Below are positions 22,214 through 38,077 of a DNA stretch of 64,000 bases, piece by piece. Under the pieces are notes generated by a model. The model did no database searches. It was not told the DNA's origin and saw only the letters and a program-made list of their open reading frames with translations. Every line of letters begins with the position of its first letter. The stretch's first letter is position 1. The position numbers and the translations under genes were made by a program. Source of the DNA: Streptomyces abyssomicinicus (GTDB lineage Bacteria > Actinomycetota > Actinomycetes > Streptomycetales > Streptomycetaceae); NCBI RefSeq assembly GCF_008974245.1, contig NZ_BBZI01000005.1:1-64000 (forward strand). The letters are read 5' to 3'.

Positions 22214-25200
22214 TCACTCCGTCTCCCGCAGCTGCAGCAGGAGGGCCTCGGCCTCAGGGCAGAGGACGCCCTCCTCCAGGAGATTCTGGAGGAGGGGATT
22301 CCAGGCGCCTTCGGACGCGGTCTGGGAGCACGCCGTCACAGCGGCGCACTGGCCACCGCACTGCCATTTGCCGATGAAGGCCACCAGTTCCTCCGGGGTG
22401 GTGACGCCCTTTCCCACCGCGCGGACCAGAAGCATTTCTCCCAGAGTCCTGCCTCGGCCCCGGACGGGCAGGACTCCGGAGGCGGCGCCCGTTCCGTACA
22501 CCTCGAGTGCCGTGCGCGCCTGTTCCCAGCGCTCGGCCGGAGGGCTGGTCAAGGCGCATTCGAAACAGGTGCGCACCAGCGCGACCCAGGCCTTCGCGGG
22601 CTCCCCCGCGCATTCGCCGCTGTGCGCCGCGTTCCGCAGGAGCACCTGCAATTCCCGACGGTGGGGCTCCGCGTTGTCAGGAAAGGCGCGGAGCCAACTG
22701 TCGAAGGTGGTGTACAGCGCCTGCCGCTCGCCGGGAGTGGCGTCCGGTCCGGTGCAGCCGAGGAGCGCGGGCGTGGCGTCCTTTGCCTGCCGGTGTCCTT
22801 GGCGCAGGAGTTTGTCCAGCATGGAGAGAGCCGCGCGGCGCGTTCCGCTCCACCGGGAGGAGAGCAGGTGCCGCCACTGCGCGGCGGTGAGGACCGTGCC
22901 GTTCCCGGACGCCTGCGGCAGCCTGCTGGCCGCCTGCCGGGCGGTGACGTCGTGGGCGTGACCTGCCGAGACGACGACCACTTCGTCCAGGGAAAGCCTT
23001 CGTACGGTCTCGCGGTCGAGGGTGCCTTCCAGGAGCCGGTCGGTTCCCCGCTGCCGCTCCGGCGGGGCCGTCCGCGCCAGCAGGCGATCCAGCCGGGTCT
23101 TCTCCTCGGGGGAGGCGATGAAGGAGGAGACACGTCGTCCAAGCCCATAGAGGACGGCTCGGACTTCGTCGGAATATGTCTTGTCCCAGGGGAGGGGAAG
23201 GGACTGGAACCAGGTCGCGACCTCCGTGGCGACGTCCGGCTCGGAACACAGGTCCCCCAGCACGTTCGCCGCGCGCTTCCGGACTTCCACAGCGCCGGAG
23301 CCCGCGTCCAGACACCGCCACAAGGCGTCCCGCAGTACGGGCCGTTCCCTGGCGAGGAGCCGTGCCGTGTGCTGGGCCAACCGGGAGTTCGGAAACGTGT
23401 CCGTGTCGGTGATCAGTTTGTCCAGCACGCGTTCCGCCATCGGTTCCGCCTCGAGGAGCGCCGTGGCGACGAACCGGGCACCCTCGTCCGCGGGGACGAA
23501 GACGTCGTCGGGCAGCGCCACGAGGAACCGGAGGAAGGTGTTCCTGCTTCCGGCCGGTGTTCCTGGCGTGCCCACCAGACGGATGTACACCTCGCGGACT
23601 TTGCGGCCCGCGGCCTCGAAGTCCTCCTGGACGGCTTGAACGGTTTCCACGGACACCGGGGCGCCTACCTCCAACGCGGGCCCCAGCATGTCCTGGAGAG
23701 CTTCGTCCGGCTGCCGGACGACCGTGGGCCCCCGCCGGGGCCAGTCCGCTCTGCGCGCATGCACCGCCCGGATGCCGGGGGCCAGGTCGGCCACATCGTC
23801 CCCCGGCCGTCGGCGGACGGACAACAGACCGAACAACGCGACGGAGGCGGAGACCTGTTGATGCGGAAGGTCGCGCAGTCCGCCGAGGGCGACGGCCCGA
23901 GCGGCGTCCAGGCCGGGTTCGGTCACCGCTTCCAGTGCGTCCCACAGCGAGACGATCCGCTGGTCGAGCCGTCCGGTCGCCTCCTGGGCGAGGCCGCTGA
24001 TGTGAGCGCTGTTGCCGCAGTTGGCGACGGCGAAGGCGGTGTTGCGGAAGATGCCGAGGTCATCGAGGCGGAGTTCGGGCACCACGTCGTCGAGCCGGTG
24101 AAGTACGTCCTCCATTCCCAGCAGGTGCCGAAGGACCGGTAGCGCGAACCCGTACCCCGCCGGGTCGCTGCAGAGCCGCTGATAGAACTCCCGCCGCTCG
24201 TCGTCGAGTTCGACAAGCCAGTGGGCAACGGCGTACTCGGCGAGGGTCTGGTGCCGGAACTCCACCACCTTGATCGGCATCGCTCCTTGTTCGACCTCGT
24301 TGAGGAAACCGTCGTCGCAGAGCTCTTGGAGCGCGGCCCTGCGCCGCGCGCTGCCCGTGTCCAGCCCGGCGGGCCCACCGCCGGCCGTTCCCGTCAGACG
24401 GTTCCTGGTCAGCCGGTCCTGGAATCGGGTACGGGACTCCCGCCACAGCAGCGAGGCCATGTATCGGCAGAGGGCCTCTTTGTCCTCGATCCGTTCGTCC
24501 ATGGCCTCCTGGGAACCGGTCAAACGGGTGCTCGACACCTTCTCCGCCCAGTACCGGGCGTAGAGACCGCTGGTGGTGAGGTCCTGGGGCACGTGTCCGT
24601 CGGTGCCGCCGAAGATCTCGCACACCATCCCGAGCAGGAGCGGGCTGCTGAGAAGGCGGCGCAGCCCGACGTGCGCGCCGCCGGACGAGATGGTGATCAG
24701 CCGTTGGCCGAACTCTTCCTCGCCGATCGCCGGGCGGATGCCCTTGGCCGTCAGATACTGCCGGGTGAAGTCGACGATCTCCTGCTGATCCAGGGCAGGC
24801 ACGGACTTGACGACGGCCTTGTGGCCGCCTTCGTCCACCAGCGTGGTCAGCGGTCCGCAGTACGCGCTGTACTCGCGGGGGCGGCAGGTCAGCACGATCG
24901 TGGTGCCGGTGGCGGAGAGTTCCGAGAGATAGGCGCACAGGGGGTCGGCCCACTGGCGGGAGAGCAGCAGGTCCAGGGTGTCGAGCAGGAGGACCCGGCC
25001 CTCGCCCGAGAACTGCTCGAGCGCCGCGGTGAGCCGGCCCGCGCCGGACGCCGCGCCGAAGGCCTGGTCCAGGGATTCGGACGCCAGGGCCGTGGCGAGG
25101 GGAAGCTGGCCCGTCAACGGCGCCGACGCGGCTGTCGGCGGCGACTCCGGGAGGAGGACCTGGTCGCAGCGGACCATGACGGGGGTCGAGGGCCCGGAGC

Positions 25201-25462
25201 TGCCCAGCAGTTCGTACAGGTGCCCCAGGAGAACCGTCTTGCCCGAACCGGCGTCGGCGACGACGCTCAACAGGCCTCCGCCCTCCGCGCGCATGTCCTG
25301 CACCAGAGGAAACACGATGTCCGCGGTCACTGCGCGGGCGAGCAGCGGCACACGCCGAGGCTTGAACTCCTGGATCAGCGCGCGTTGACCGGCCCGGAAG
25401 CGTCGTTCGGCGCTCGAATCGTCATGGGCGCCGACGAGGCCGGTGGTGACGCCGTTGGTCAT
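22214..25462 (-). CDS. STAND/NACHT-like P-loop NTPase with helical repeat C-terminus (1082 aa)
   Basis: The NTPase core has Walker A DAGSGKTV (residues 70-77), Walker B RVLLLDTLD (156-164) and TTIVLTCRPREYSAY (187-201). A helical segment LLSSPLLLGMVCEIFGG follows, as in NACHT modules. From about residue 420 to the end the protein looks like alpha-helical repeats of HEAT/ARM type, suited to sensing. No effector domain was recognised. Its ATG overlaps the stop of a small membrane-protein gene (ATGA at 25459-25462), so the pair is one unit. STAND NTPases of this shape include antiphage and signalling proteins; a defence role is inferred from domain type and from surrounding gene debris. Confidence 0.8.
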   Translation of the reverse strand: MTNGVTTGLVGAHDDSSAERRFRAGQRALIQEFKPRRVPLLARAVTADIVFPLVQDMRAEGGGLLSVVADAGSGKTVLLGHLYELLGSSGPSTPVMVRCDQVLLPESPPTAASAPLTGQLPLATALASESLDQAFGAASGAGRLTAALEQFSGEGRVLLLDTLDLLLSRQWADPLCAYLSELSATGTTIVLTCRPREYSAYCGPLTTLVDEGGHKAVVKSVPALDQQEIVDFTRQYLTAKGIRPAIGEEEFGQRLITISSGGAHVGLRRLLSSPLLLGMVCEIFGGTDGHVPQDLTTSGLYARYWAEKVSSTRLTGSQEAMDERIEDKEALCRYMASLLWRESRTRFQDRLTRNRLTGTAGGGPAGLDTGSARRRAALQELCDDGFLNEVEQGAMPIKVVEFRHQTLAEYAVAHWLVELDDERREFYQRLCSDPAGYGFALPVLRHLLGMEDVLHRLDDVVPELRLDDLGIFRNTAFAVANCGNSAHISGLAQEATGRLDQRIVSLWDALEAVTEPGLDAARAVALGGLRDLPHQQVSASVALFGLLSVRRRPGDDVADLAPGIRAVHARRADWPRRGPTVVRQPDEALQDMLGPALEVGAPVSVETVQAVQEDFEAAGRKVREVYIRLVGTPGTPAGSRNTFLRFLVALPDDVFVPADEGARFVATALLEAEPMAERVLDKLITDTDTFPNSRLAQHTARLLARERPVLRDALWRCLDAGSGAVEVRKRAANVLGDLCSEPDVATEVATWFQSLPLPWDKTYSDEVRAVLYGLGRRVSSFIASPEEKTRLDRLLARTAPPERQRGTDRLLEGTLDRETVRRLSLDEVVVVSAGHAHDVTARQAASRLPQASGNGTVLTAAQWRHLLSSRWSGTRRAALSMLDKLLRQGHRQAKDATPALLGCTGPDATPGERQALYTTFDSWLRAFPDNAEPHRRELQVLLRNAAHSGECAGEPAKAWVALVRTCFECALTSPPAERWEQARTALEVYGTGAASGVLPVRGRGRTLGEMLLVRAVGKGVTTPEELVAFIGKWQCGGQCAAVTACSQTASEGAWNPLLQNLLEEGVLCPEAEALLLQLRETE

Positions 25463-26183: not shown

Positions 26184-26783
26184 ATGGCAGATGAGACATG
26201 GGAGGCCCTGCGAGGCACTCCGCCCAGCGAGGTGCGCAGACGTGTGGCGGCCGTCAGCGAGACGCTCGGCCCCCGTTTCGTCAGAGAGCTGCGCGGCGCG
26301 CAGCGCTACGAGTTCAACCAAGGCATCGGGCAGTGGGTGGTGTGGTATTTCACCCCGGATCGGCAGGTTCTGTTGCTGACCTATGAGGGGCTCGCGGACA
26401 CCACACCTTCCTCGGACGATTACCCCACCATGGAGATGTTCTACCGGGACGTCCCCGACGACCTCGTCGCTCTCGTACGCAACGACGACGAAGTGAGCAC
26501 GACCGTCATCAACAAGGAGAGCGGCGAGACCCTTCACTGGGCCAGCAGCGTGTTCTGGTGCGATGGCAGCACGTGGTGGATCTCGGAAGGCTTCCTCGAC
26601 TTCTGCGAGGAGGAGGGCTACGACCCGTTGGTGAGCTCCTGCTTCCAGGACCCGCTGTTCCCGTACGCCTTCGGGCGGGAGCTGACGGCCGAGTCGGTTG
26701 CCCGGTTGTCAGCCGATGAGGACGACGAGTGGTTCGGCGACGTGGTGGCCGAGGTACGCGAACGGCTGCGGCGTCAGTACTGA
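26184..26783 (+). CDS. Hypothetical protein (199 aa)
   Basis: A complete acidic soluble protein with many Trp and Tyr residues (for example GQWVVWYFTPDRQ and WCDGSTWWISEGF). It has no signal peptide or membrane helix. The C-terminus is strongly charged (DEDDEWFGDVVAEVRERL). The family is not recognised; the size and composition resemble immunity or SUKH-like proteins, but no defining motif was found. Its GC content is slightly lower than in the flanking metabolic blocks, in keeping with an accessory gene. Confidence 0.7.
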   Translation: MADETWEALRGTPPSEVRRRVAAVSETLGPRFVRELRGAQRYEFNQGIGQWVVWYFTPDRQVLLLTYEGLADTTPSSDDYPTMEMFYRDVPDDLVALVRNDDEVSTTVINKESGETLHWASSVFWCDGSTWWISEGFLDFCEEEGYDPLVSSCFQDPLFPYAFGRELTAESVARLSADEDDEWFGDVVAEVRERLRRQY

Positions 26784-26815: not shown

Positions 26816-27180
26816 ATCCGACGCCGGCGGAGGGGCGGTACCGAAGGGGGCGACGCACGGCGGGCAGCGGAAGCACTGGGCATACATCTGGGCCACGAGT
26901 TCCGCGCGGAGGCAGACGGCCTCGGCGTCGTATGGACCGATGGACCGACCGTGGAGGCAGTACGCCGAGCGGCCGCCAAGGTCCCCGGAGCAGACGATCC
27001 CCGCCTTGGTCTCCGTCGCGAACTCTCCGCCTCAGCGGTCACCCTGGGCGCCGTCCGCAGTGCGCTGGGCGGCTTCGGCGCACCCCATGCCGTGGTGGGC
27101 CTCGAAGGCGGCCCTGCGGTGGAGGTGCTCACGGAGCAGGGCCGGGTGAGGGTGGAGACACCGACCATCCGGACGCATGG
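26816..27180 (+). pseudogene. Fragment of an unknown gene without a start codon
   Basis: After an in-frame TAG at 26813 the frame reads protein-like sequence containing GIHLGHEFRAEADGLGVVW, DGPTVEAVRRAAAKVPGADD and HAVVGLEGGPAVEVL, then degenerates. No start codon is seen near the beginning, and no natural stop appears before the antisense of the next gene. The family is unknown. It is likely a remnant in the accessory island. Confidence 0.35.
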
Positions 27181-27283
27181 CAACGGTGGTCGGGGGTCTG
27201 CCGCGCCCTCTGCCGGACAGCGTCCTCGACAGGCCGGGACGCGTACTCCCCGTGCATGGTCCCCCCCCCGCCCGCTCCGCGGG

Positions 27284-27760
27284 TCACATGTCCGCGGCCC
27301 CTGCCCTGATCGCGGCGCGGATGCGGGGGTAGGTGCCGCAGCGGCAGATGTTGCGGATGCCGTCGAGGTCGGCCTCGGTGATCTCGCGGCCCTCCTCGGC
27401 GACCCGGCGGACCAGGGCGACGGCGGCCATGATCTGGCCGGGCTGGCAGTAGCCGCACTGGGCCACGTCCTGGTCCAGCCAGGCCCGCTGCATGGGGTGC
27501 AGGTCGGCGCCCACCGTGGCGGCGAGGCCCTCGATGGTGGTGATCTCGTCGGTGGGGGCGAGGTCCTTCACCGGGACGGCGCAGGGGTTCACGGCGCGGC
27601 CGTTGAGGTGGCTGGTGCACGCCTTGCAGACGTTGATGCCGCACCCGTACTTCGGCCCGGTGACGCCCAGCACGTCGCGCAGGACCCACAGCAGCCGCTC
27701 GTCGTCGTCGACGTCGACGGTGACCTGTTCGCCGTTCAGGCGGAAGGTGTGCTCGGGCAT
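27284..27760 (-). CDS. 2Fe-2S small subunit of a xanthine dehydrogenase-type aldehyde oxidase (158 aa)
   Basis: The plant-type 2Fe-2S cluster has C40, C45 and C48 (YGCGINVCKAC) and C60. The second cluster has C102 and C105 (AQCGYCQPGQIM) and C139 and C141 (ICRCGTY). This is the small subunit layout of Mo hydroxylases such as isoquinoline 1-oxidoreductase. It lies 71 nt after the large subunit and ends the lcp operon. In Streptomyces sp. K30 an oxiA/oxiB pair of this type follows lcp and oxidises the aldehydes made from rubber; the same role is inferred, but which of the two symbols applies is not settled here. Confidence 0.9.
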   Translation of the reverse strand: MPEHTFRLNGEQVTVDVDDDERLLWVLRDVLGVTGPKYGCGINVCKACTSHLNGRAVNPCAVPVKDLAPTDEITTIEGLAATVGADLHPMQRAWLDQDVAQCGYCQPGQIMAAVALVRRVAEEGREITEADLDGIRNICRCGTYPRIRAAIRAGAADM

Positions 27761-27831
27761 GGGTTCTCGGTTCTCCCAAGGGTCGGGGCGGGTCGGGTCG
27801 GAGCGGCTCGTGGCGGGTCGGGGCGGCCGGG

Positions 27832-30222
27832 TCAGCGGACGTGGTCGAGGCCGTCCGTGGGCGAGGCCGGGACGGGCGGGACGGTCGGCTTCGGCTCGAA
27901 GGAGAGGGTGCCGTGGTTGACCGGGAAGGTGGTGGGCATGGTGCCGGTGGCGCGGCCGTAGGCGCAGGCCACGGCGGCCATCGAGGCGGCGACGCCCAGT
28001 TCGCCCGCCCCGCCGGGCTTCCCGGTGGTGTCCGGCAGGACGATGACCTCCACCTCGGGCGGCGTGTTCCACTGCCGGGTGTAGAAGTAGTTGTCCCAGC
28101 TCGCCTCGAGGAAGTGGCCGTCGCGCAGGTGCAGGCTGGAGGTCAGGGTCAGCGCGATGCCGTCCATCAGGCACCCCATCATCTGCGCCTCGAGACCGCG
28201 CGGGTTGACGGCCAGGCCCACGTCCACGGCGGTGAACGCCCTGGTGACGCGCGGGCCGGCCACGCCGTCGCGGACCGGCCGGTTCACGGTCTCCGGCCGG
28301 CAGTCGATCTCCACCAGCACCGCGTTGACGGAGCGGTACTCGGTGTGCAGCGCGATGCCCTGCGCCGTGCCCGCGGGCATGGCGCGGCCCCAGTTCCCCG
28401 CCTCGGCGACCGCCTCCAGCGCCGCCCGGGCGCGGTCGTCGCGCAGGAGGTCACGGCGGAAGGCGTAGGGGTCCTTGCCCATCTTCGCGGCGACCCGGTC
28501 GACCATGAGCTCCCGTGCGCAGGTGACGTCCGGGGAGAAGACGTTGCGCATGCTGCCCGTGTTGAACCCCTTGTCGGTCTCGTTCAGCAGGCGGCTGTTG
28601 ACGCCGAACTCGTAGGGCATCGACTGGGAGAGCTGGAAGAAGACCTGGGAGAAGGCGGCGTCGCCGACCGGAAGCTGCGCCACCGTGGCGGTGAGGAGCT
28701 CACCGAGACCGTGGCCGAGGTCGGTGGCGACGCCGGTGTGCCGCTGCCGGTAGCCGAGGACGGTGTTCCCGGCGTAGGCGATGCGCACCCGCGAGCGCGC
28801 CATCGGATGGGTGCGCCCCTGGCGGGAGTCGTCCGCGCGGTGCCACATCAGCTTGACGGGCTTGCCGGTCTTCCGGGAGACCTCGGCGGCCTCCAGCGCG
28901 GCGTCGAAGAAGAGCTTGCGGCCGAACGAGCCGCCGCCCTCGGTGACATGGACGGTGACCGCGCCCACCGGCAGCCCGAGCCGGGCGGCGATGGTCTCCT
29001 GGGCGACGATCGGCGACTTCAGGGACGCCCAGATCTCGGCACGGCCGGGCCGTACATCGGCGATCGCGCAGTTGGGCTCCAGCGCGCTGTTGCTGCGGAA
29101 GTGGAAGGTGAACTCGCCCTCCACGTGCGGCGTCAGCGGCGGCAGCCCGATGGGTATCTCGGCGGCACGCAGCTCCTTGAGGACGGTCGCGTCGGACTTG
29201 CCCTCGGCGGTGCCCGGCTTCCAGGTCACCCGCAGGGCACGGACGGCGTCGACGCACCGGCCGAAGGTTCGCGCCCGGACCGCCACCCCCGTGGAGATCA
29301 CCACGACGTCGGTGACGCCCGGCATGGCGCGGACCTCGTCGAGGTTGGCCACCGAGCCGACCTTGCCGTTGATGGTCGGAGGGCGGCAGACCATGGTCGG
29401 CAGGGCGTTGGGTACCTGGAGGTCCATGGTGAACCTCTTGCGCCCGGTCACCGCGTCGAGCGCGTCGACGCGGTTGTGGGGGCGGCCGACGACGGTGAAC
29501 TCCTCGCTCGCCTTGAGCTCTACCGACTCCGCCTCGGTCCGCAGGGCGGCGGCCTTCGCGGAGAGCTCGCCGATGCCGATCCGCCGCCCGGCGGGGCCGG
29601 TGACGACGCCCGCGTCCAGGCGCAGGTCACCGACGGGCGCGTCCAGTTCGGCGGCGGCGGCGCGCAGCAGCCGCAGCCGGGCGACGGCGGCGGCGACACG
29701 GACCGGCGTGTAGGTCGAGATGGTGGTGTTGGAGCCGCCGGTGAGCTGGTTGAACAGCAGCTCGGGCCGGGCGTCGGCCAGCGTGACGCGCACCCGGTCC
29801 ACCGGCACTCCCATCTCCTCGGCGATCAGCATGGCCGTGGAGGTGGTGATGCCCTGGCCGACCTCGGCCCGCGGCAGGGCGAACGAGACGGTGCCGTCGG
29901 TGTGCACCTCGACCGTGATCAGGCCCGAGGTCGGCAGGGCGGCGATGGTCATCGCGTCGTTCAGGTCGAGCAGGTCGGTGATCTCCAGGGAGGGGATCCC
30001 CGCCGCCGCGCCTGCCGAGGACGCCGCGCCCGCCGAGGACGTCCCGGCGGCCCGGGCCGGTGCCGCGGGGGCGAGTTCGGCGGCCGCCACCAGGGTCGGC
30101 GCGGCCAGCACGTACCCGAGGAAGCGGCGCCGTCCGAGGGCGGGCGGGCCGGACTCCGGCCGTGCCGGACGGTGGAGGCCACCGGCCGTGTCTCGCGGTG
30201 TCGCGGTCCCGTCACTGGACAT
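27832..30222 (-). CDS. Molybdopterin-binding large subunit, IorB-like aldehyde oxidoreductase (796 aa)
   Basis: A twin-arginine signal (GRRRFLGYVLAAP near residue 30, then APAAPARA) suggests export of the holoenzyme. The mature part has Mo-hydroxylase motifs: TEGGGSFGRKLFFDAALEAA for cofactor binding, several repeats of the IorB family, and the catalytic Glu in GGAGELGVAA near the C-terminus. With the 2Fe-2S subunit downstream it forms a two-subunit aldehyde or N-heterocycle oxidase without a separate FAD subunit. The ATG at 30222 directly precedes the Tat region. The gene lies in the same operon as two rubber oxygenases, pointing to oligo-isoprenoid aldehydes as substrate. Confidence 0.9.
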   Translation of the reverse strand: MSSDGTATPRDTAGGLHRPARPESGPPALGRRRFLGYVLAAPTLVAAAELAPAAPARAAGTSSAGAASSAGAAAGIPSLEITDLLDLNDAMTIAALPTSGLITVEVHTDGTVSFALPRAEVGQGITTSTAMLIAEEMGVPVDRVRVTLADARPELLFNQLTGGSNTTISTYTPVRVAAAVARLRLLRAAAAELDAPVGDLRLDAGVVTGPAGRRIGIGELSAKAAALRTEAESVELKASEEFTVVGRPHNRVDALDAVTGRKRFTMDLQVPNALPTMVCRPPTINGKVGSVANLDEVRAMPGVTDVVVISTGVAVRARTFGRCVDAVRALRVTWKPGTAEGKSDATVLKELRAAEIPIGLPPLTPHVEGEFTFHFRSNSALEPNCAIADVRPGRAEIWASLKSPIVAQETIAARLGLPVGAVTVHVTEGGGSFGRKLFFDAALEAAEVSRKTGKPVKLMWHRADDSRQGRTHPMARSRVRIAYAGNTVLGYRQRHTGVATDLGHGLGELLTATVAQLPVGDAAFSQVFFQLSQSMPYEFGVNSRLLNETDKGFNTGSMRNVFSPDVTCARELMVDRVAAKMGKDPYAFRRDLLRDDRARAALEAVAEAGNWGRAMPAGTAQGIALHTEYRSVNAVLVEIDCRPETVNRPVRDGVAGPRVTRAFTAVDVGLAVNPRGLEAQMMGCLMDGIALTLTSSLHLRDGHFLEASWDNYFYTRQWNTPPEVEVIVLPDTTGKPGGAGELGVAASMAAVACAYGRATGTMPTTFPVNHGTLSFEPKPTVPPVPASPTDGLDHVR

Positions 30223-30430
30223 GGTCGTCAGGTTCCCATCGTGGTCGGGCGGTTGCGGCTCGCACACCTTGCCGTGGGGCCACGCGCGCGGCAAGGGGGC
30301 GTCGTGTGGGGATGTCGTGCCCTGCGAGGCGGTCCGGGGCGCGGGGCCCCGCCGGTGGAGGCGGCGGAGCCCCGCGCCCCGGTGGAAGCGGGCGAGCGGG
30401 CGAGCGGGCGGCGGTGGAGCGGGCCGGCGC

Positions 30431-31654
30431 TCAGGAGGGGCGGTTGGCGTCCGGGATCTCCAGGTGGATGGGCCGGCCCTCCGCCATGAAGAGGAGCACG
30501 AACTTGCGCAGCGCCTCCTCCAGCACCCAGGCGATGGACGGGATCCCCGGCAGCGGGATCAGGCCCTCGCGGAAGGCCACCACCAGCGGCCACGCGGCCG
30601 CGACGATCGGCTTCAGGATCGGCTCGCGGTCCAGGCCGATCTTGTCGCCCACGTCGTCGCCGACGATGTAGCGGGAATACGCGTTGATCAGCGGCTCGGT
30701 GAGCCCGGCGTCGACCTCGGCGATGATGCCCAGGAGCGCGTCGGTGAGCGCCACGCCCTCGGGGGTGCGGGCGATGATCGGGTCGAGCACCTGCCGGGAC
30801 TGGGCGTTGGCGTCCGCCCAGGTCGCGGGGATGTACTCGTCCTTGATGCCGAGCATGTGGGCGGAGACCTGCCACACGTGCAGGAAGCCCTCCGACTCGG
30901 CGGTCGTCATCGGGACCTTCCACTTCAGGAGGGTCTTCATGACGTACGTGGGGAGGCTGTGCCAGGTGACCATCATGTCGGCCTGGCTGATCGGGATGGT
31001 CTGGCCGCCGCTCGTCTGCGACCAGCCGGGGGACTGCGGCAGCAGGTGCCGCACGGCCGCGTGCACCAGGCGGGTCCGCACCGAGGTCGCGATCATGCCG
31101 CCCTGCGGCTGGTAGGCGTACCGGTCGCCGACGTCGTAGCCCAGCTGGGCGGTCTTGGCCACCCGGTCCTTCATGTCGGCGCCGCCCTTGGAGTAGTACA
31201 CGGCGCGCGCCTCGCGCGGGATGGCGGTGCTCAGCAGGCCGCTGCCCAGGCCGTACAGGGCCCCGGTGTACAGCCCCTTCCTCCGGGTGAACTCGACCGC
31301 CGCCTGCAGCTTGGCCGGGTTCGCCCAGGCGGGCATCTTCCGGGCCTCCTCCATCCAGACCCCGAGGTCCGTGGGGAGCCCGGAGGGCAGCGGCTGGTCG
31401 TTGCGGACCCAGTCCCGCAGCAGGTCGTTGACCATGGGGACCTGGCCGCGCCGGATGACGTCGGCGACGATCGCGTCGACCTCCTCGTCCCACACCCACT
31501 CGGGGTCGACGCCCGCCCCGCTGCCCGCCACGGACCCGGTCGGGGACCAGGTCCACAGGGACCGGGCGCGGGCCGGGGACGCCAGGCTCAGCGCGCCGAA
31601 GGCGCCCAGCGAGCCGCCCGCCAGCAGTAACCTGCGCCGGTTGATGTCAGCCAT
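30431..31654 (-). CDS. lcp: Latex clearing protein, rubber oxygenase (407 aa)
   Basis: A DUF2236/MpaB-type b-heme oxygenase with a Tat signal (NRRRLLLAGG; processing after SPARA). The residues known to be essential in Lcp of Streptomyces sp. K30 occur at the same positions: R164, K167 and T168 in DRVAKT, and the heme ligand H198 in RTRLVHAAVRH. Lcp cleaves poly(cis-1,4-isoprene) outside the cell to oligo-isoprenoids with aldehyde and ketone ends. AGGAGG precedes the ATG. It is the second of two tandem lcp paralogues and lies upstream of the Mo-hydroxylase genes. Confidence 0.93.
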   Translation of the reverse strand: MADINRRRLLLAGGSLGAFGALSLASPARARSLWTWSPTGSVAGSGAGVDPEWVWDEEVDAIVADVIRRGQVPMVNDLLRDWVRNDQPLPSGLPTDLGVWMEEARKMPAWANPAKLQAAVEFTRRKGLYTGALYGLGSGLLSTAIPREARAVYYSKGGADMKDRVAKTAQLGYDVGDRYAYQPQGGMIATSVRTRLVHAAVRHLLPQSPGWSQTSGGQTIPISQADMMVTWHSLPTYVMKTLLKWKVPMTTAESEGFLHVWQVSAHMLGIKDEYIPATWADANAQSRQVLDPIIARTPEGVALTDALLGIIAEVDAGLTEPLINAYSRYIVGDDVGDKIGLDREPILKPIVAAAWPLVVAFREGLIPLPGIPSIAWVLEEALRKFVLLFMAEGRPIHLEIPDANRPS

Positions 31655-31675
31655 GTGTGCATGCCTCCTGGGTTG

Positions 31676-32911
31676 TCACGGGTTGGTGGGGCGGTTGGTG
31701 TCGGGGATGTCGATGTGCGTGCCCTGTCCCTTGGTCAGGTAGAAGAGGATGTACTGGCGGATGGCCTCGTCGACCGTCCAGGCGAGCGGCGGCACCAGCG
31801 GAAGCGGGATGAGCTTCTCGCGGAAGGCCACCAGCGCCGGCCAGGCCGTCCTGATCGCCCCCTCCCAGAACGGCTCCCGGGGGATGCCGTCCATGTCGGC
31901 GATCTCGTCGCCGACGAGGTACCGGGCCAGGGCGTCGCACAGGGGGCGGTCGATGCCGCCGGGGCTGGTCTGCTCGGCGAGCTGGCCCAGCAGGATGTCG
32001 GTCAGCTCGACGCCCTCCGGGGTCGAGGCCAGGATCGGCTCCAGCACCTGCCGGTACTGGGAGTTCGCGTCCGCCCAGGTGGCGGGGATGTACTCGTCCC
32101 GGATGCCGAGCATGTGCGCGCTGACCTGCCACAGGTGCAGATACGCCTCCTTGTCGGCGGCGGGCATCGGCACCTTCCACTCGAGCATCTTGCGCATCGC
32201 GTAGGTGGGCAGGCTGTGCCAGGTGACCATCATGTCGGCCTGGCTGATCGGGATGGTCTGGCCGCCACTGGTCCGCGACCAGCCGGGGGACTGCGGCAGC
32301 AGGTGCCGCACGGCCGCGTGCACCAGGCGCGTCTTGACCGACTCCACCACCACCTTGCCGTCGGGCCGGTAGGCGTTCAGGTCGCCGACGGCGAAGCCCA
32401 GGAGGCTGGTCTTGGCGACCCGGTCCTCCATGTCGGCGCCGCCCTTGGAGTAGTAGACGGCGCGCGCCTCGCGGGGGATGGCGGTGCTCAGCATGCCGCC
32501 GCCCACGCCGTTGAGCAGGTTGAGGTAGATGCCCCGGCGCCGGTTGAAGTCGGCCGCCAGCTCGAGCTTGGACCGGTCGGCCCACGAGGGCAGCCGGCGG
32601 GCCTCCTCCATCCACTCCCGCACGTCGGCCGGCAGCGCGGCGGGCAGCGGCTGGTCGTTGCGGGTCCACGTCCGCAGCGCCTCGTTCACCCGGGGGACGT
32701 CGCCCCGGTCGATCACGGCGGCGACCAGCTGGTCGACCTCCTCGTCCCACACCCATTCGGGGTCGACGCCCGCCCCGCTGCCCGCCACCGATCCGGCCGG
32801 CGACCAGGTCCACAGGGACCGGGCCTTCGCCGGTGACGCAAGGCCCAGCGCCCCCAGCACCCCCAGGGCACCGCCCGCGGCCAGCACGCCGCGTCTGCCG
32901 AGTCCGTCCAT
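31676..32911 (-). CDS. lcp: Latex clearing protein paralogue (411 aa)
   Basis: Very similar to the downstream copy over its whole length. It has a Tat-type start (LGRRGVLAAGG, processing after SPAKA) and identical catalytic positions (R164, K167, T168, H198). Differences concentrate between residues 105 and 135 and in the C-terminal third. The ATG at 32911 follows GAGGAGGAG. The gap to the second lcp is only 21 nt, so they are cotranscribed. Two copies may differ in chain-length preference or simply raise dosage. Confidence 0.92.
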   Translation of the reverse strand: MDGLGRRGVLAAGGALGVLGALGLASPAKARSLWTWSPAGSVAGSGAGVDPEWVWDEEVDQLVAAVIDRGDVPRVNEALRTWTRNDQPLPAALPADVREWMEEARRLPSWADRSKLELAADFNRRRGIYLNLLNGVGGGMLSTAIPREARAVYYSKGGADMEDRVAKTSLLGFAVGDLNAYRPDGKVVVESVKTRLVHAAVRHLLPQSPGWSRTSGGQTIPISQADMMVTWHSLPTYAMRKMLEWKVPMPAADKEAYLHLWQVSAHMLGIRDEYIPATWADANSQYRQVLEPILASTPEGVELTDILLGQLAEQTSPGGIDRPLCDALARYLVGDEIADMDGIPREPFWEGAIRTAWPALVAFREKLIPLPLVPPLAWTVDEAIRQYILFYLTKGQGTHIDIPDTNRPTNP

Positions 32912-32958
32912 GACTCCCAGCTCCTCCTCGAGTCCGCGGTCACGCACGCACCGATTTG

Positions 32959-32989
32959 GTATCCTGATACACGATGCGTATCCGTGTAC
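32959..32989. promoter_or_regulatory. Paired operator-like repeats in the lcp/TetR intergenic region
   Basis: GTATCCTGATAC (32959-32970) is an inverted repeat with 5-bp arms. GTATCCGTGTAC follows 19 bp downstream (32978-32989) as a related copy. The spacing is close to two helical turns. They lie between the divergent lcp operon and the TetR gene and are the best candidate binding sites for that regulator. Confidence 0.6.
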
Positions 32990-33114
32990 CTCCCTAGAGG
33001 AGCACAACGGAGGCCGGAACGCCAGAGGTTCAACAGCACCAAGGAGGAACCCGTGGACACGGCGAACCCGAGCGCCTGGGCGAAGGCGCGCGTGCACCCT
33101 GTACGGTCGGCCCC

Positions 33115-33762
33115 ATGACCACCCCGGACGCCCCGTCGCTGCTCGAGATCGCGTTCACCGAGGCCGTCCAGGGCGCGGACCCGGAGGACGAGACGGCCGC
33201 ACGCCTGCTCGACGCCGCCTACGAACAGTTCTGCCGCATGGGCATCAAGCGGTCCACGATGGCCGACGTGGCCAAGCTCGCGGGGGTCTCGCGCATCACC
33301 GTCTACCGCCGGTTCGCGAGCAAGGACGTCCTGGTCGAGCAGGTGGTGCGCCGCGAGTTCCGGCGGTACTTCGACCAGTTCGTCCACGACATCCAGGGCG
33401 CCGAGACCGTCGCCGACCGGGTCGTGATCGGCTTCGTCAGCTCGCTGCGCGCCATCCGCCGCAACGCTCTCATCGGCGGCCTGATGACCGTCGAGCCGGA
33501 CGCCGTGGTGCCGTCCATGACCAGCGACGGCGGCCGCACGCTGGCCGCGGTGCGGCAGTTCCTCGCCGGCGGCCTGCGGCGGGAGCAGCTCGCCGGCAAC
33601 GTCTCGGAGGGCGTCGACGTCGATCTGGTGGCCGAGATGATGGTCCGGATCTCCGCGTCCTTCCTGGTCATCCCCAGCCACGTCGTCGACATCGAGGACG
33701 ACGAGCGGATGCGCGAGGTGGCCCGGCGGTTCCTGGTGCCGATGCTCGAGCCTCCGCGCTAG
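33115..33762 (+). CDS. TetR-family regulator divergent from lcp (215 aa)
   Basis: The HTH lies at residues 28-75, with LLDAAYEQFCRMGIKRSTM and DVAKLAGVSRITVYRRFASK. The rest is a helical ligand-binding domain. It is transcribed away from two lcp genes with paired palindromic repeats between them. TetR regulators of lcp are known in other rubber degraders (for example LcpR in Gordonia), so control of rubber oxidation is the likely role. Confidence 0.9.
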   Translation: MTTPDAPSLLEIAFTEAVQGADPEDETAARLLDAAYEQFCRMGIKRSTMADVAKLAGVSRITVYRRFASKDVLVEQVVRREFRRYFDQFVHDIQGAETVADRVVIGFVSSLRAIRRNALIGGLMTVEPDAVVPSMTSDGGRTLAAVRQFLAGGLRREQLAGNVSEGVDVDLVAEMMVRISASFLVIPSHVVDIEDDERMREVARRFLVPMLEPPR

Positions 33763-34094
33763 CGGCGGGGCGGGCGCCGGGGCGGCGGGCGCCGCAGGCG
33801 GGCGGGCCGGCCGTCGCCGGTGCTCTGTCGCCGGCGTCCGTCGGCCCGTCCGTGGGCCCGTCCGGGGACTTTCCCCTGCCCGCCGTGCCCGGTGGGAGGC
33901 TGGAGCAGGCCGTCCGTTGGCGCCCTGTCAACGGATTCGTGGCGACCATCTGCCGTGTCGCTGGGGCGAGTTGACTTCTTCCCGTCGTCCCACGGGCGGT
34001 TCGTGCGCGGCCTATTGACACCCGGCCAACTACGGGTCCACGGTGGGCCCCGCTCGAGGAGTCCGCTCACGGTTCGCGATGGAGGGAGCCCGCC
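33763..34094. other. Non-coding gap before the acyl-CoA synthetase
   Basis: No gene is supported. GGAGGGA near 34081 is the ribosome binding site of the next gene. TTGAC elements occur near 33973 and 34015, but no matching -10 was identified with confidence. Confidence 0.5.
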
Positions 34095-35912
34095 GTGGCC
34101 ACAGCAGAGCAACTGCGACAGTCCGTCGAGGGGTTGACCATTCCCAGGCTGCTGCGGCGCAACGCCGGGCAGTTCGCCGCACTTCCCGCACTCACCACAG
34201 GCATCGGCCCCGAGGAGGGGACGCTGACCTGGTCCCAGCTGCGCGCCGAGGTCGCCGCCCTCACCCGCGGACTCGCCGCACTCGGTCTCCGGCAGGGCGA
34301 GCGGATGCTCATCGCGATGTCGAAGCGGGCCGAGCACTGGGTCGCCGACCTGGCGGCCATCCATCTCGGCGCCCTGTCCTGTTCCACGTACGACACCCTC
34401 AGCACCGAGCAGATCCGCTTCGTCGCGCGGCACAGCGCGGCCACCGTCCTCGTCCTCGAGGGCGAGGAGCAGATGCGGCGCTGGGGTCCGGTGCTGGACG
34501 ACCTGCCGCATCTGCGGGCCGTCGTCGTCCTCGACTGGAGCGCCGCCCCGGAGGGCGACGGGCGGTTCGTCAGCTACCAGGCCGTACGCGGCGGGGTGAA
34601 GCCCGACGAGGCCGCCTTCGAGGCCCTCACCGAAGCGGTCACCACCGACCAGCCGATGACCGTGGTGTACACCTCGGGCACCACCGGTGACCCGAAGGGC
34701 GTGGTGCTCACCCACCGCAACGTCATCCACGAGTCGTTGATGCAGGACCAGCTCGTCGCCGTCCCCGAGCACCCCCGGACCCTCGCGTACCTGCCCATGG
34801 CGCACATCGCCGAGCGGGTCCTCGGCATCTACCTGCCGATCTGCAACGCCGGCCACGTCACGATCTGCCCGGACCCAGCTCAGCTCCTGCCCGGACTGCT
34901 CCAGGTGCGCCCGCACGGGTTCTTCGGCGTCCCCCGGGTCTGGGAGAAGCTCGCCGCCGGCCTGGAGGCCAGGCTCGCCACGCTGACCGGGGAACGGGCC
35001 GAGGCCGTGGAGCAGGCGCGCAAGCTCGCGCTGGAGACGTTCCGCCTGCGCTCCGAGGGCCGGCGGGTCCCCGAGGACGTCGCCGCCTCGCTGCGTCGGC
35101 TCGACGAGGAGGTGCTGCTCTCGATCCGCGCCGCTGTCGGGTTCGACGACTGCCGCCGCGCCTTCAGCGGTGCGGCGCCGATCCCCACCGCCGTCCTGGA
35201 ACTCCTGGCGAGCGTCGGCCTCGCCGTGTACGAGGTGTGGGGGCTGAGCGAGACCACCGGCGCGGCCACGGTCGGCGTCCCCGACGCGTTCGCCCTGGGC
35301 GCCGTCGGACGCCCGGGTCCCGGCATCGAGGTCAAGGCCGCCGAGGACGGCGAGCTGTTCGTCCGCGGCCCCGTGGTGGTGCCCGGCTACCTGAACCCGC
35401 AGGGCGGCGTCGACCCGGCGACCGACGCGGAGGGCTGGCTGCCCACCGGTGACCTCGGCGCGGTGGACGAACGGGGCATCGTCTCCGTCACCGACCGCAA
35501 GAAGGAGATCATCATCACCGACGGGGGCAAGAACGTCGCCCCCACCCGGGTGGAATCCCTGCTGCGCGCGCACCCCCTGATCGCCCAGGCCGTCGCCGTC
35601 GGCGACCGGCGGCCGTACATCACCGCGCTGCTGGTGCTGGACGAGGAGACGGCCCCGCGGTGGGCCGAGGCACACGGGATCGACGCCGACGGCCTGGACG
35701 AACTGGCCCGCCACCCCGAGGTGCTCGCCGCCGTCGACGCCGCGGTCGCCGAGGCCAACGCCAGGCTCTCCCGCCCGGAGCAGGTGAAGAGGCACCGCGT
35801 GCTGGCCGGCCCCTGGACCGCGGAGTCCGGGGAGCTGACGCCCAAACTGAGCCTGCGGCGACGGGACATCGACCGGCTGCACGCCGCGACGATCGAGTCG
35901 ATGTACACGTAG
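34095..35912 (+). CDS. Long-chain fatty-acid-CoA ligase, AMP-forming (605 aa)
   Basis: An ANL-superfamily enzyme. The P-loop is VVYTSGTTGDPKGVVLTHRN, the A5 motif is YEVWGLSETTGA, and A7-A10 are seen as WLPTGDLG, DRKKEIIITDGGKNVAPT and a C-terminal Lys in SGELTPKLSL. It activates fatty acids to acyl-CoA in the cytoplasm. The GTG follows GGAGGGA. Its nearness to the rubber locus suggests possible activation of isoprenoid acids, but a housekeeping role is equally possible. A TetR gene follows in the same direction 56 nt later. Confidence 0.93.
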   Translation: MATAEQLRQSVEGLTIPRLLRRNAGQFAALPALTTGIGPEEGTLTWSQLRAEVAALTRGLAALGLRQGERMLIAMSKRAEHWVADLAAIHLGALSCSTYDTLSTEQIRFVARHSAATVLVLEGEEQMRRWGPVLDDLPHLRAVVVLDWSAAPEGDGRFVSYQAVRGGVKPDEAAFEALTEAVTTDQPMTVVYTSGTTGDPKGVVLTHRNVIHESLMQDQLVAVPEHPRTLAYLPMAHIAERVLGIYLPICNAGHVTICPDPAQLLPGLLQVRPHGFFGVPRVWEKLAAGLEARLATLTGERAEAVEQARKLALETFRLRSEGRRVPEDVAASLRRLDEEVLLSIRAAVGFDDCRRAFSGAAPIPTAVLELLASVGLAVYEVWGLSETTGAATVGVPDAFALGAVGRPGPGIEVKAAEDGELFVRGPVVVPGYLNPQGGVDPATDAEGWLPTGDLGAVDERGIVSVTDRKKEIIITDGGKNVAPTRVESLLRAHPLIAQAVAVGDRRPYITALLVLDEETAPRWAEAHGIDADGLDELARHPEVLAAVDAAVAEANARLSRPEQVKRHRVLAGPWTAESGELTPKLSLRRRDIDRLHAATIESMYT

Positions 35913-35968: not shown

Positions 35969-36592
35969 ATGGACGGTCGGCGCCAGGCACCACGACGCAG
36001 GATGGACCCGGACGCCCGCCGGGCGGAGATCCTGGCCGTCGCCCGCGGGCTGTTCGGGGCGAAGAGCTACGCCACGGTGTCCACCTCGGACATCGCGGCC
36101 CGGGCCGGGGTGGCCCGGGCGCTGATCAACCACTACTTCGGCGGCAAGCGGCAGCTGTACCTGGAGGTGGTGCGGCAGATGATGGTCGTGCCGGCCTCCG
36201 TCTCGGAGCGGCTGCCGCCCACCACCGCCGAGGAGCGGGTCTCGATCTGCGTCGACCGGTGGCTCGAAGTCGTCGAACGCAACCGGGAGATGTGGCTCTC
36301 CGCGATCGGACTGGAAGCCCTCGGCAACGACCCCGAGATCGACCGGATCATGCTCGAGGCCGACGAGATCGCCACCGACCGGGTCCTCGAGGCGGCGATG
36401 ATGACCGACGTGGTGGAAGGCCGGGAGAAGCTGCGGGCGATGATCCGCGCCCACAGCGGCATGCTCAAGGCCGCCTCCCGCGAGTGGCTGGTGCGCGGCA
36501 CGCTCGGCCGCAGCGATCTGCACGTCATGCTGACGCGCACCGTGCTCCACCTCGTCGACACGGTCTTCCCGGCCGTGCGGGACGACGCGTGA
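35969..36592 (+). CDS. TetR-family regulator (207 aa)
   Basis: The HTH spans residues 15-60: RRAEILAVARGLFGAKSYATV, with DIAARAGVARALINHYFGGK as the DNA-contacting part. The C-terminal domain resembles the TetR_C group found beside fatty-acid genes. The ATG at 35969 is in frame; another ATG at 35961 is not. It follows the acyl-CoA synthetase and may regulate it. The end is convergent with an HATPase gene. Confidence 0.9.
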   Translation: MDGRRQAPRRRMDPDARRAEILAVARGLFGAKSYATVSTSDIAARAGVARALINHYFGGKRQLYLEVVRQMMVVPASVSERLPPTTAEERVSICVDRWLEVVERNREMWLSAIGLEALGNDPEIDRIMLEADEIATDRVLEAAMMTDVVEGREKLRAMIRAHSGMLKAASREWLVRGTLGRSDLHVMLTRTVLHLVDTVFPAVRDDA

Positions 36593-36593
36593 C

Positions 36594-37039
36594 GGGGTGT
36601 CCCCCAACCGGAGGGTGGCCCACACCGTCTTCCCGCCCGGATGGTACGGCCGGACGCCCCAGTCGTCCGCCAGCGCCTCGACGAGGAACAGGCCGCGCCC
36701 TGACGTGCCGTCCGGGTCCGCCCGCGGCACGGGCGGGCGGTCGCCCCGGGCGTCGGTGACCTCGATCCGGAGCTCGGCGGCGTCCAGCAGGAGCGTGAGC
36801 CGGGCCCCACGGCCACGCACCCGGCCGTGCAGGGCGGCGTTGGCCGCGAGTTCGGCGACGAGCAGGGCGGCGGTCGGAATCAGGCCGTCACCGGCCGGCA
36901 GGTGCGTGCCGAGCCAGCGTTCGGCGGCACGGCGCACGGCGTGCGCACCGCGCGGGGTGGCGGGGAAGAGCGTGCCGAAGCGCGGCGGCCGCGCGGCCGG
37001 CCGGGGGCGGTGGACAGCGGTTCCGGATTTCTCGTTCAC
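36594..37039 (-). CDS. HATPase_c regulatory ATP-binding protein, no stop at expected end
   Basis: About 148 residues show the anti-sigma-factor kinase-like fold common in Streptomyces: PATPRGAHAVRRAAERWL, ALLVAELAANAALHG (N-box), LRIEVTDARGDRPP, and the G2 region GRGLFLVEALADDWGV followed by TVWATLRL. The domain ends near 36594, but the frame has no stop there and stays open to 35387, antisense through the whole TetR gene. Normal family members end close to the VWATL strand, so a stop may have been lost by an indel. The GTG at 37039 is the start. Coordinates given cover the recognisable domain only. Confidence 0.65.
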
Positions 37040-37213
37040 CTCACCGAGAGTGACGTGATGGATCTACTGTGAGGAGCATCCGGGCCGGTACCGACGGCCA
37101 CTGTCCGGCGGCGCCGAGCGATCTGTCCGGACGGGCGGCCGGGTTGTCCGGGTGTCCGGGCGTGCTTGCCGTTCGTCACGCTCGGTGATCAGTGGAGCAA
37201 GGTGGTGGCAGGG

Positions 37214-38077
37214 ATGGCAGCGGGAGTCGGAGTGAACACGGAGGACCCGGCGGCCTCGGACGAGGCGGCGGACCTGTTCCGGGCGGTCGGCCGCCAGCTC
37301 AAGGCCGCGAGGGAGCGGGCGGGGCTGGGGCAGCGGGAGTTGGGCAGGCGGCTGGGATACAGCGAGGAACAGATCTCCTCCCTGGAGCGCGGGCGGCGCA
37401 CACCGCAGCCGGAGTTCCTGCGGGCGGCGGACGAACTGCTCGGCTGCGGCGGCCTGCTGGCCGTCGCCGCGGAGGACGTGGAGCGGGCGAAGACGCGTCG
37501 GCGGGTGAGGCATCCGGAGTGGTTCCGCGACTACGCGGAGCTGGAGGGCAAGGCGGTCGAGCTGTGCTACTTCGCCAATCAGGCCGTCCCCGGCCTGTTT
37601 CAGACGGAGGCGTACGCGCGTGCCGTCTTCTCCAACCGTCAGCCCTACTTCGACGAGGAGACCATCGAGCAGCGTGTCACTGCACGGCTCGCCCGGCAGG
37701 AACTGCTGACCAAGTGGCCGCCGCCGAAGGTGACGGCCGTGGTGCAGGAAGCGGTGCTGCGGCAGTCCTTCGGCGGACCCACGGTCCAGCGTGAGCAGTT
37801 GCGGCATCTGGTGCAGGTGGGTGGCCTGCGGCACGTCGAGATCCAGGTGATGCCGATGAGCAGCGAGGAACACGCGGGAATGGGCGGCCCGTTCACCATG
37901 CTCGAACTCAAGGACAGGCCGCGCATGGCATACCTGGAGGTCCAGCACGTCAGCCGGCTGGTCACCGAGCCCGAAGAGGTCCGGGTGCTGGCCGCGAAGT
38001 ATGGCAGCATCCGAGGGCAGGCGCTTTCCACCCACGAATCCTTGCGCCTTGTCGAGAAGTTGCTGGGAGACCTATGA
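37214..38077 (+). CDS. XRE-type HTH regulator with DUF5753 domain (287 aa)
   Basis: An N-terminal XRE helix-turn-helix (LKAARERAGLGQRELGRRLG, then EEQISSLERGRRTP) is followed by the DUF5753 C-terminal domain (PGLFQTEAYARAVF, VQEAVLRQ, IQVMPM, FTMLEL). Such proteins pair with small DUF397 proteins in Streptomyces and affect development, as with BldB/WhiJ-like loci. The frame is open to a TTG at 37166; the ATG at 37214 is used, but a GTG at 37232 with GGGAG in front is also good. It overlaps the DUF397 gene by four bases. Confidence 0.88.
   Translation: MAAGVGVNTEDPAASDEAADLFRAVGRQLKAARERAGLGQRELGRRLGYSEEQISSLERGRRTPQPEFLRAADELLGCGGLLAVAAEDVERAKTRRRVRHPEWFRDYAELEGKAVELCYFANQAVPGLFQTEAYARAVFSNRQPYFDEETIEQRVTARLARQELLTKWPPPKVTAVVQEAVLRQSFGGPTVQREQLRHLVQVGGLRHVEIQVMPMSSEEHAGMGGPFTMLELKDRPRMAYLEVQHVSRLVTEPEEVRVLAAKYGSIRGQALSTHESLRLVEKLLGDL

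Follow-up and report, generated by a model that had tools for sequence, protein, structure and literature searches.

A locus of the published lcp-lcp-oxiB-oxiA arrangement lies in the 64,000-nucleotide stretch of the Streptomyces abyssomicinicus genome analyzed here (contig C5:1-64000 of a 7.93-Mb assembly in 24 contigs, hereafter the window), and judging from its genes and from characterized relatives it very probably serves rubber degradation. That high confidence applies to the rubber function and not to the existence of a single transcript; on the same grounds, the organism probably cleaves rubber. The locus spans positions 27284-33762, bounded exactly by the end of oxiA and the end of a tetR gene, and gene identity, gene order, export motifs, active-site residues and a conserved intergenic motif were all read directly from the DNA. 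Its genes are:

31676 to 32911, minus strand: lcpA, first latex clearing protein (rubber oxygenase), 411 residues; PF09995; 588 bits to structure 5O1L; clade A (see below).
30431 to 31654, minus strand: lcpB, second latex clearing protein and the K30-type copy, 407 residues; PF09995; 644 bits to 5O1L; clade B, with K30.
27832 to 30222, minus strand: oxiB, molybdenum hydroxylase large subunit, 796 residues; MoCoBD_1/MoCoBD_2.
27284 to 27760, minus strand: oxiA, [2Fe-2S] subunit, 158 residues; Fer2 and Fer2_2; eight cluster cysteines.
33115 to 33762, plus strand: tetR (lcpR-like), divergent TetR-family regulator, 215 residues; TetR_N.

The two lcp genes are adjacent and co-oriented, 21 bp apart, and are followed by oxiB after 208 bp and by oxiA after a further gap of 71 bp. 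An overlapping 388-residue open reading frame (31647-32813, minus strand) was rejected as lcpA, being in the wrong frame for that gene. A first-pass annotation had called this a rubber degradation locus with tandem lcp genes, which remains the best reading, backed by the gene identities, their order and published relatives.

The Lcp proteins carry most of this identification. In a search of solved structures, the sole matches of either protein were to the rubber oxygenase of Streptomyces sp. K30 (5O1L and 5O1M), with E-values against 5O1L of 7.8e-176 for LcpA and 9.9e-193 for LcpB that exclude chance. LcpA is identical to the K30 enzyme at 258 of 407 positions (63.4%) and LcpB at 278 of 407 (68.3%), and the two are 65.8% identical to each other; the alignment to K30 runs without gaps over residues 4-407 of LcpB and up to about residue 315 of LcpA. 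Both proteins keep E148, R164, K167, T168 and the heme ligand H198 at the K30 positions. Across 144 Lcp rows (K30, the two window proteins and 141 rows from related loci, the last with duplicates among which are the window's own genes), E148, R164, T168 and H198 were invariant and K167 was present in 143. The K30 structure paper, surveying 495 Lcps, reports H198 in 100% and K167 in only 59% (PMC5522427), so our rows represent closer kin, and retention of the five residues is therefore expected for Lcps this close. They confirm family membership without singling out LcpA or LcpB, and the overall identity of 63 and 68% to K30 is the stronger evidence. The annotation had pointed to R164, K167, T168 and H198 as kept at the K30 positions; this is correct for both proteins, but as a special mark it loses its value, the residues being near-universal in the 144 rows. 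Published substrate-pocket residues are retained at 10 of 11 positions in LcpA and 11 of 11 in LcpB. Each protein also begins with a motif of the twin-arginine translocation (Tat) type, with RR at residues 6-7, a hydrophobic stretch and an ARA/AKA-type site recognized by eye (motif only), so that PF09995, close homology to a solved Lcp, the active-site set and an export motif coincide in both.

Downstream, the molybdenum hydroxylase pair that had been annotated as following lcp in the manner of K30 is indeed there, as recognized from Pfam domains and motifs. OxiB has a Tat-type motif (RRRFL) at residue 31 and a GGAGELG motif, which we take to hold the catalytic glutamate. Its best solved matches were the aldehyde dehydrogenase 8GY3 and PaoC, it is 50-83% identical to OxiB of related loci, and a search of the genome with OxiB at E 1e-10 returned no further match. 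OxiA has its eight [2Fe-2S] cluster cysteines in motifs at residues 40 and 102, and inspection by eye found no Tat motif in it. The pair thus combines a molybdenum cofactor-binding subunit with Tat and glutamate motifs, an eight-cysteine partner and a position downstream of lcp.

Among the closest published parallels is Actinoplanes sp. OR16, for which lcp1-lcp2-oxiB-oxiA are described as co-transcribed and the divergent TetR ACTI_59620 as binding the lcp1 promoter; of its latex-oxidizing Lcps, Lcp1 is reported to be about 7 times more active than Lcp2 and about 18 times more active than Lcp3 (PMC7413915). Likenesses to that system extend over gene order, the divergent TetR, a third lcp set apart with a regulator of two helix-turn-helix domains, and an operator palindrome holding a related motif. 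The differences are the genus, the membership of lcpB in clade B (only Streptomyces among the sampled rows) and a strong stem-loop before oxiB in the window. Streptomyces sp. CFMR 7 is also described with an adjacent lcp pair ahead of oxiB and oxiA, its third lcp lying apart (PMC9108482, PMC7413915), a likeness drawn from description only. Dactylosporangium AC04546 is reported to carry an adjacent lcp pair before oxiB-oxiA, with all three of its Lcps active (PMC11169899). Streptomyces sp. K30 itself (lcp-oxiB-oxiA; 5O1L/5O1M; PMC5522427) shares the Lcp family, the active-site residues and the OxiAB partners, but has a single lcp; the clade A copy is missing there and appears to have been lost. 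The window locus is thus a further member of an arrangement already in print.

Enzyme activity, aldehyde oxidation and regulation are proposed by analogy with these relatives. Two Tat-secreted heme-b rubber oxygenases would cleave poly(cis-1,4-isoprene) at its double bonds through insertion of O2, yielding oligo-isoprenoids with aldehyde and ketone ends. OxiAB would leave the cell through the Tat signal of OxiB, with OxiA carried along, and would turn the aldehyde ends into acids that the cell could take up and degrade by beta-oxidation. From an operator lying 45 bp upstream of lcpA, the divergent TetR would govern the lcp promoter, repression being the most likely mode, and lcpA, lcpB, oxiB and oxiA would probably share one transcript. 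A different substrate deserves consideration: as PF09995 oxygenases, both Lcps might chiefly attack some other isoprenoid or a lipid, whose products OxiAB would then oxidize. PF09995 is a broad family (the genome holds four more matches besides its three Lcps), and sequence alone is no proof of substrate. Set against this are the 63 and 68% identity to K30 and the retained pocket residues (10 of 11 and 11 of 11), together with the report that OR16 Lcps, only 47.6-56.6% identical to K30, consume O2 on latex (PMC7413915). We consider a main substrate other than rubber very improbable.

Relatives of the window's TetR, scored like the oxi neighbors by tblastn, were found in 52 of 78 related loci at 46-85% identity, one of them a 51-residue fragment; those of the Gordonia loci L071 and L072 were 46-50% identical. 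By its divergent orientation to lcp and its homology to TetRs of other lcp loci, the regulator is classed as LcpR-type. The gap between lcpA and tetR contains one candidate site:

32957 to 32990, minus strand: putative LcpR operator, with core TGTATCAGGATACCA at 32957-32971.

The TetR-lcp gaps share a conserved motif, TGTTTCANCGTATCA, and most rows also show an inverted TGATAC half upstream of it (judged by eye, uncounted). Starting from 54 gaps, we removed L004, which is the window itself, and L089, whose gap equals that of L016 in length and, over the printed part, in sequence; the remaining 52 still include the window's gap. Those 52 gaps also supplied the consensus, and the best match anywhere in each gap was taken; on this basis 50 of 52, the window's included, scored at least 10/14, a score reached by 4.0% of mononucleotide-shuffled gaps. 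The best match in L082 lies 144 bp from lcp and so may be a different site. A looser pattern, drawn to include the window core, had exactly one match in the 7.93-Mb genome, the one in the window, and none in the control. The published OR16 palindrome contains the related TGTAACAGCGTATCA (PMC7413915).

Several observations weigh against parts of this picture. An NCBIfam search at E 0.001 assigned neither Lcp to a family. The window's operator core scores 10/14, among the weakest matches, so that by itself it is near chance level, and the two Gordonia gaps (L071 and L072) fall below 10/14. A scan of positions 27000-34100 for sigma-70-like promoters gave no match. Finally, the 208-bp gap between lcpB and oxiB holds a long hairpin, so it is not certain that oxiBA and lcp are transcribed together:

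30334 to 30382, minus strand: GC-rich stem-loop of 21 pairs (one G-U) in the lcpB-oxiB gap, with no T run.

Taken as an insulator, the stem-loop would make oxiBA a transcription unit separate from lcp. The gap length favors this, as does the stem, which none of 100 mononucleotide shuffles reached. When the whole gap was folded against dinucleotide shuffles, z was only -1.59 and 12 of 200 shuffles folded equally well. The stem also lacks a T run, and a scan of 27000-34100 found no T-tailed terminator. In OR16, reverse transcription PCR is reported to link lcp2 to oxiB and oxiB to oxiA (PMC7413915), and in loci L011 and L014 the lcpB-oxiB gap is only about 11 bp by tblastn ends. The lcpB-oxiB stretches of 12 relatives were compared (L011 and L014, at 11 bp, left out, and that of L009 no true gap, with no oxiB in the available DNA); stems unmatched by any shuffle occur in just two of them, L010 and L016, and the stem is not conserved as such. 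A separate oxiBA unit appears unlikely, though a real contender; it is possible that the stem-loop acts as an attenuator or transcript stabilizer.

The adjacency of the two lcp genes, their shared orientation, the 21-bp spacing and their 66% identity could suggest that a K30-like operon gained a redundant second copy by recent tandem duplication. The phylogeny rejects this. For a first tree, 141 locus Lcps were reduced to 102 (Actinomadura and Tsukamurella single copies thinned; own-genome duplicates and short rows removed), to which K30 and the two window proteins were added. Lcp rows of same-genus genomes coincide there with rows of named Streptomyces (G245 with S. clavifer, for instance), in keeping with the genus. 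From this tree, 66 rows were picked by hand for a more careful tree (29 from group A, 24 from B, 10 from C and three from D; repeat copies of identical sequence omitted). Since the rows were grouped by where they fell in the first tree, the monophyly of both A and B in the second amounts to a confirmation from the same data. Clade A (29 rows, support 100/100) contains LcpA with proteins of Streptomyces, Streptosporangiaceae, Pseudonocardiaceae and Frankia, and clade B (24 rows, support 99/94) contains LcpB and K30 and, among sampled rows, only Streptomyces; the OR16 Lcps lay outside this tree. With LcpA and LcpB in separate, supported clades of many species each, a recent duplication is scarcely credible.

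Because the clades of lcpA and lcpB are both old, the single lcp of K30 looks derived. Whether an A copy lies adjacent was assigned by hand from our locus and genome surveys and, for K30, from the description in PMC9108482; across the 24 B rows this trait changes state at least six times. Neither K30 nor its near twin G072 has an A copy, and they sit next to S. clavifer and G053, both with one, so that apart from the twin K30's nearest B kin carry the pair. Counts of changes by themselves cannot separate gain from loss of the A copy. The simplest account of these sequences would be that lcpA was lost in the K30 line and the single-lcp operon is derived; horizontal replacement may be an alternative. 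Pairs outside Streptomyces, and that of the same-genus genome G284, combine A with the third type (C), so tandem pairing has more than one composition.

Between clades A and B, 20 K30 positions differ in residue, each residue held by at least 85% of its clade. Five of the 20 fall in the pocket/tunnel list of PMC11095694 (S138G, A169S, D174A, E392K and I396T, the K30/clade B residue first), and four lie in helix E, two of them also in that list. The enrichment is weak (p 0.044 for tunnel/pocket and p 0.007 for helix E, with no correction for how the sets and the 85% threshold were chosen). I396 is described as one of three residues touching all docked substrate poses (PMC11095694); all 24 B rows have I at position 396, and 25 of the 29 A rows have T. 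As a tentative interpretation, to which we give somewhat less than even chances, LcpA and LcpB separated anciently and have been maintained together in different roles (e.g., long-chain entry vs. oligomer trimming) rather than being redundant, and the K30 operon is a reduced one from which LcpA was lost.

Related loci were collected by a contig scan with two peptide patterns that returned at least 78, counts that are not population frequencies. An adjacent lcp pair followed by oxiB-oxiA occurs in 14 of the 78, with a divergent TetR in 13 of these (L008, L011-L015, L019-L024 and L031; L010 has the genes without TetR). Two others, L009 and L017, have the pair and no oxiBA in the stretch of DNA examined. 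A single K30-type lcp with oxiBA was found in L016, L025, L033 and L070, and most other loci among the 78 have one lcp, with oxiBA not found. The lcp duplication and divergent TetR, which the first-pass annotation had regarded as additional, are thus both present, but neither is new: the pair with oxiBA is published for OR16, CFMR 7 and AC04546 and the TetR for OR16, and the pair with oxiBA recurs in 14 of the 78 loci, 13 of them with the TetR. In L018, L026 and L041 the order is lcp-oxiB-oxiA and then another lcp, with TetR in between in L018 and L026, a variant indicating that the cluster has undergone rearrangement. At the level of the genus, with six candidates scored per genome, 32 of 295 genomes had an Lcp reaching E 1e-40 and the other 263 had none at that level; an adjacent pair was present in 10 of the 32, the window's genome counted. 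In one same-genus genome (G283 C20:7936-9155) the K30-type, lcpB-like gene is in two pieces and apparently broken.

A third lcp lies on a separate contig, outside the window (C7:646428-647615), and its product is 49.7% identical to K30. The neighboring frame P0009 has two TetR_N matches, and upstream of the gene is an LcpRB-like palindrome, TATGTTAATGAGAAATCACA, that departs by one base from the half-sites in print; the LcpRB site is given as TATGTTAAT-N2-AAAATCACA (PMC8235351). With the search pattern relaxed at the differing base, the TATGTTAATGAGAAATCACA site was the only genome match at no more than one mismatch, and the control gave zero. The LcpRB palindrome was rejected as the regulatory site of the window locus: the relaxed pattern had no exact match in the window, its sole genome match being at the third lcp. 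That gene, with its two-TetR_N neighbor and TATGTTAATGAGAAATCACA, resembles the LcpRB/lcp system of Streptomyces coelicolor A3(2) (PMC7413915, PMC8235351). With a divergent-TetR lcp pair in one place and a third lcp with double TetR and palindrome in another, the genome therefore holds both published kinds of TetR-controlled lcp, as does OR16. The third-lcp region was also recovered in the locus scan, where L118:5312-8239 corresponds to C7:646311-649238 of the same genome.

Beyond the locus, the gene adjoining tetR is a possible metabolic neighbor:

34095 to 35912, plus strand: AMP-binding acyl-CoA ligase-like gene; PF00501, PF23562.

Any part of this gene in activating oligo-isoprenoid acids is no more than conjecture. 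On the other side, a 199-residue frame without a Pfam match at E 0.001 (26184-26783, plus strand) lies about 500 bp past the end of oxiA on the opposite strand, and a large protein of 1082 residues (22214-25462, minus strand) has a weak AAA_16 ATPase match under the Pfam cut-off. Farther out are a 952-residue glycoside hydrolase family 3 enzyme with an Fn3-like domain (17306-20164, plus strand) and, at 36126-38077, a HATPase_c_2 anti-sigma-like protein adjoining an HTH_31/DUF5753 regulator, a pairing common in Streptomyces.

The locus adds a well-formed example of the published rubber-degradation cluster, and with it a likely rubber-degrading Streptomyces. For the family, the K30 operon appears to have lost a partner enzyme; if the K30 model enzyme does stem from an operon minus one old partner, studies of single Lcps may therefore overlook a division of labor.

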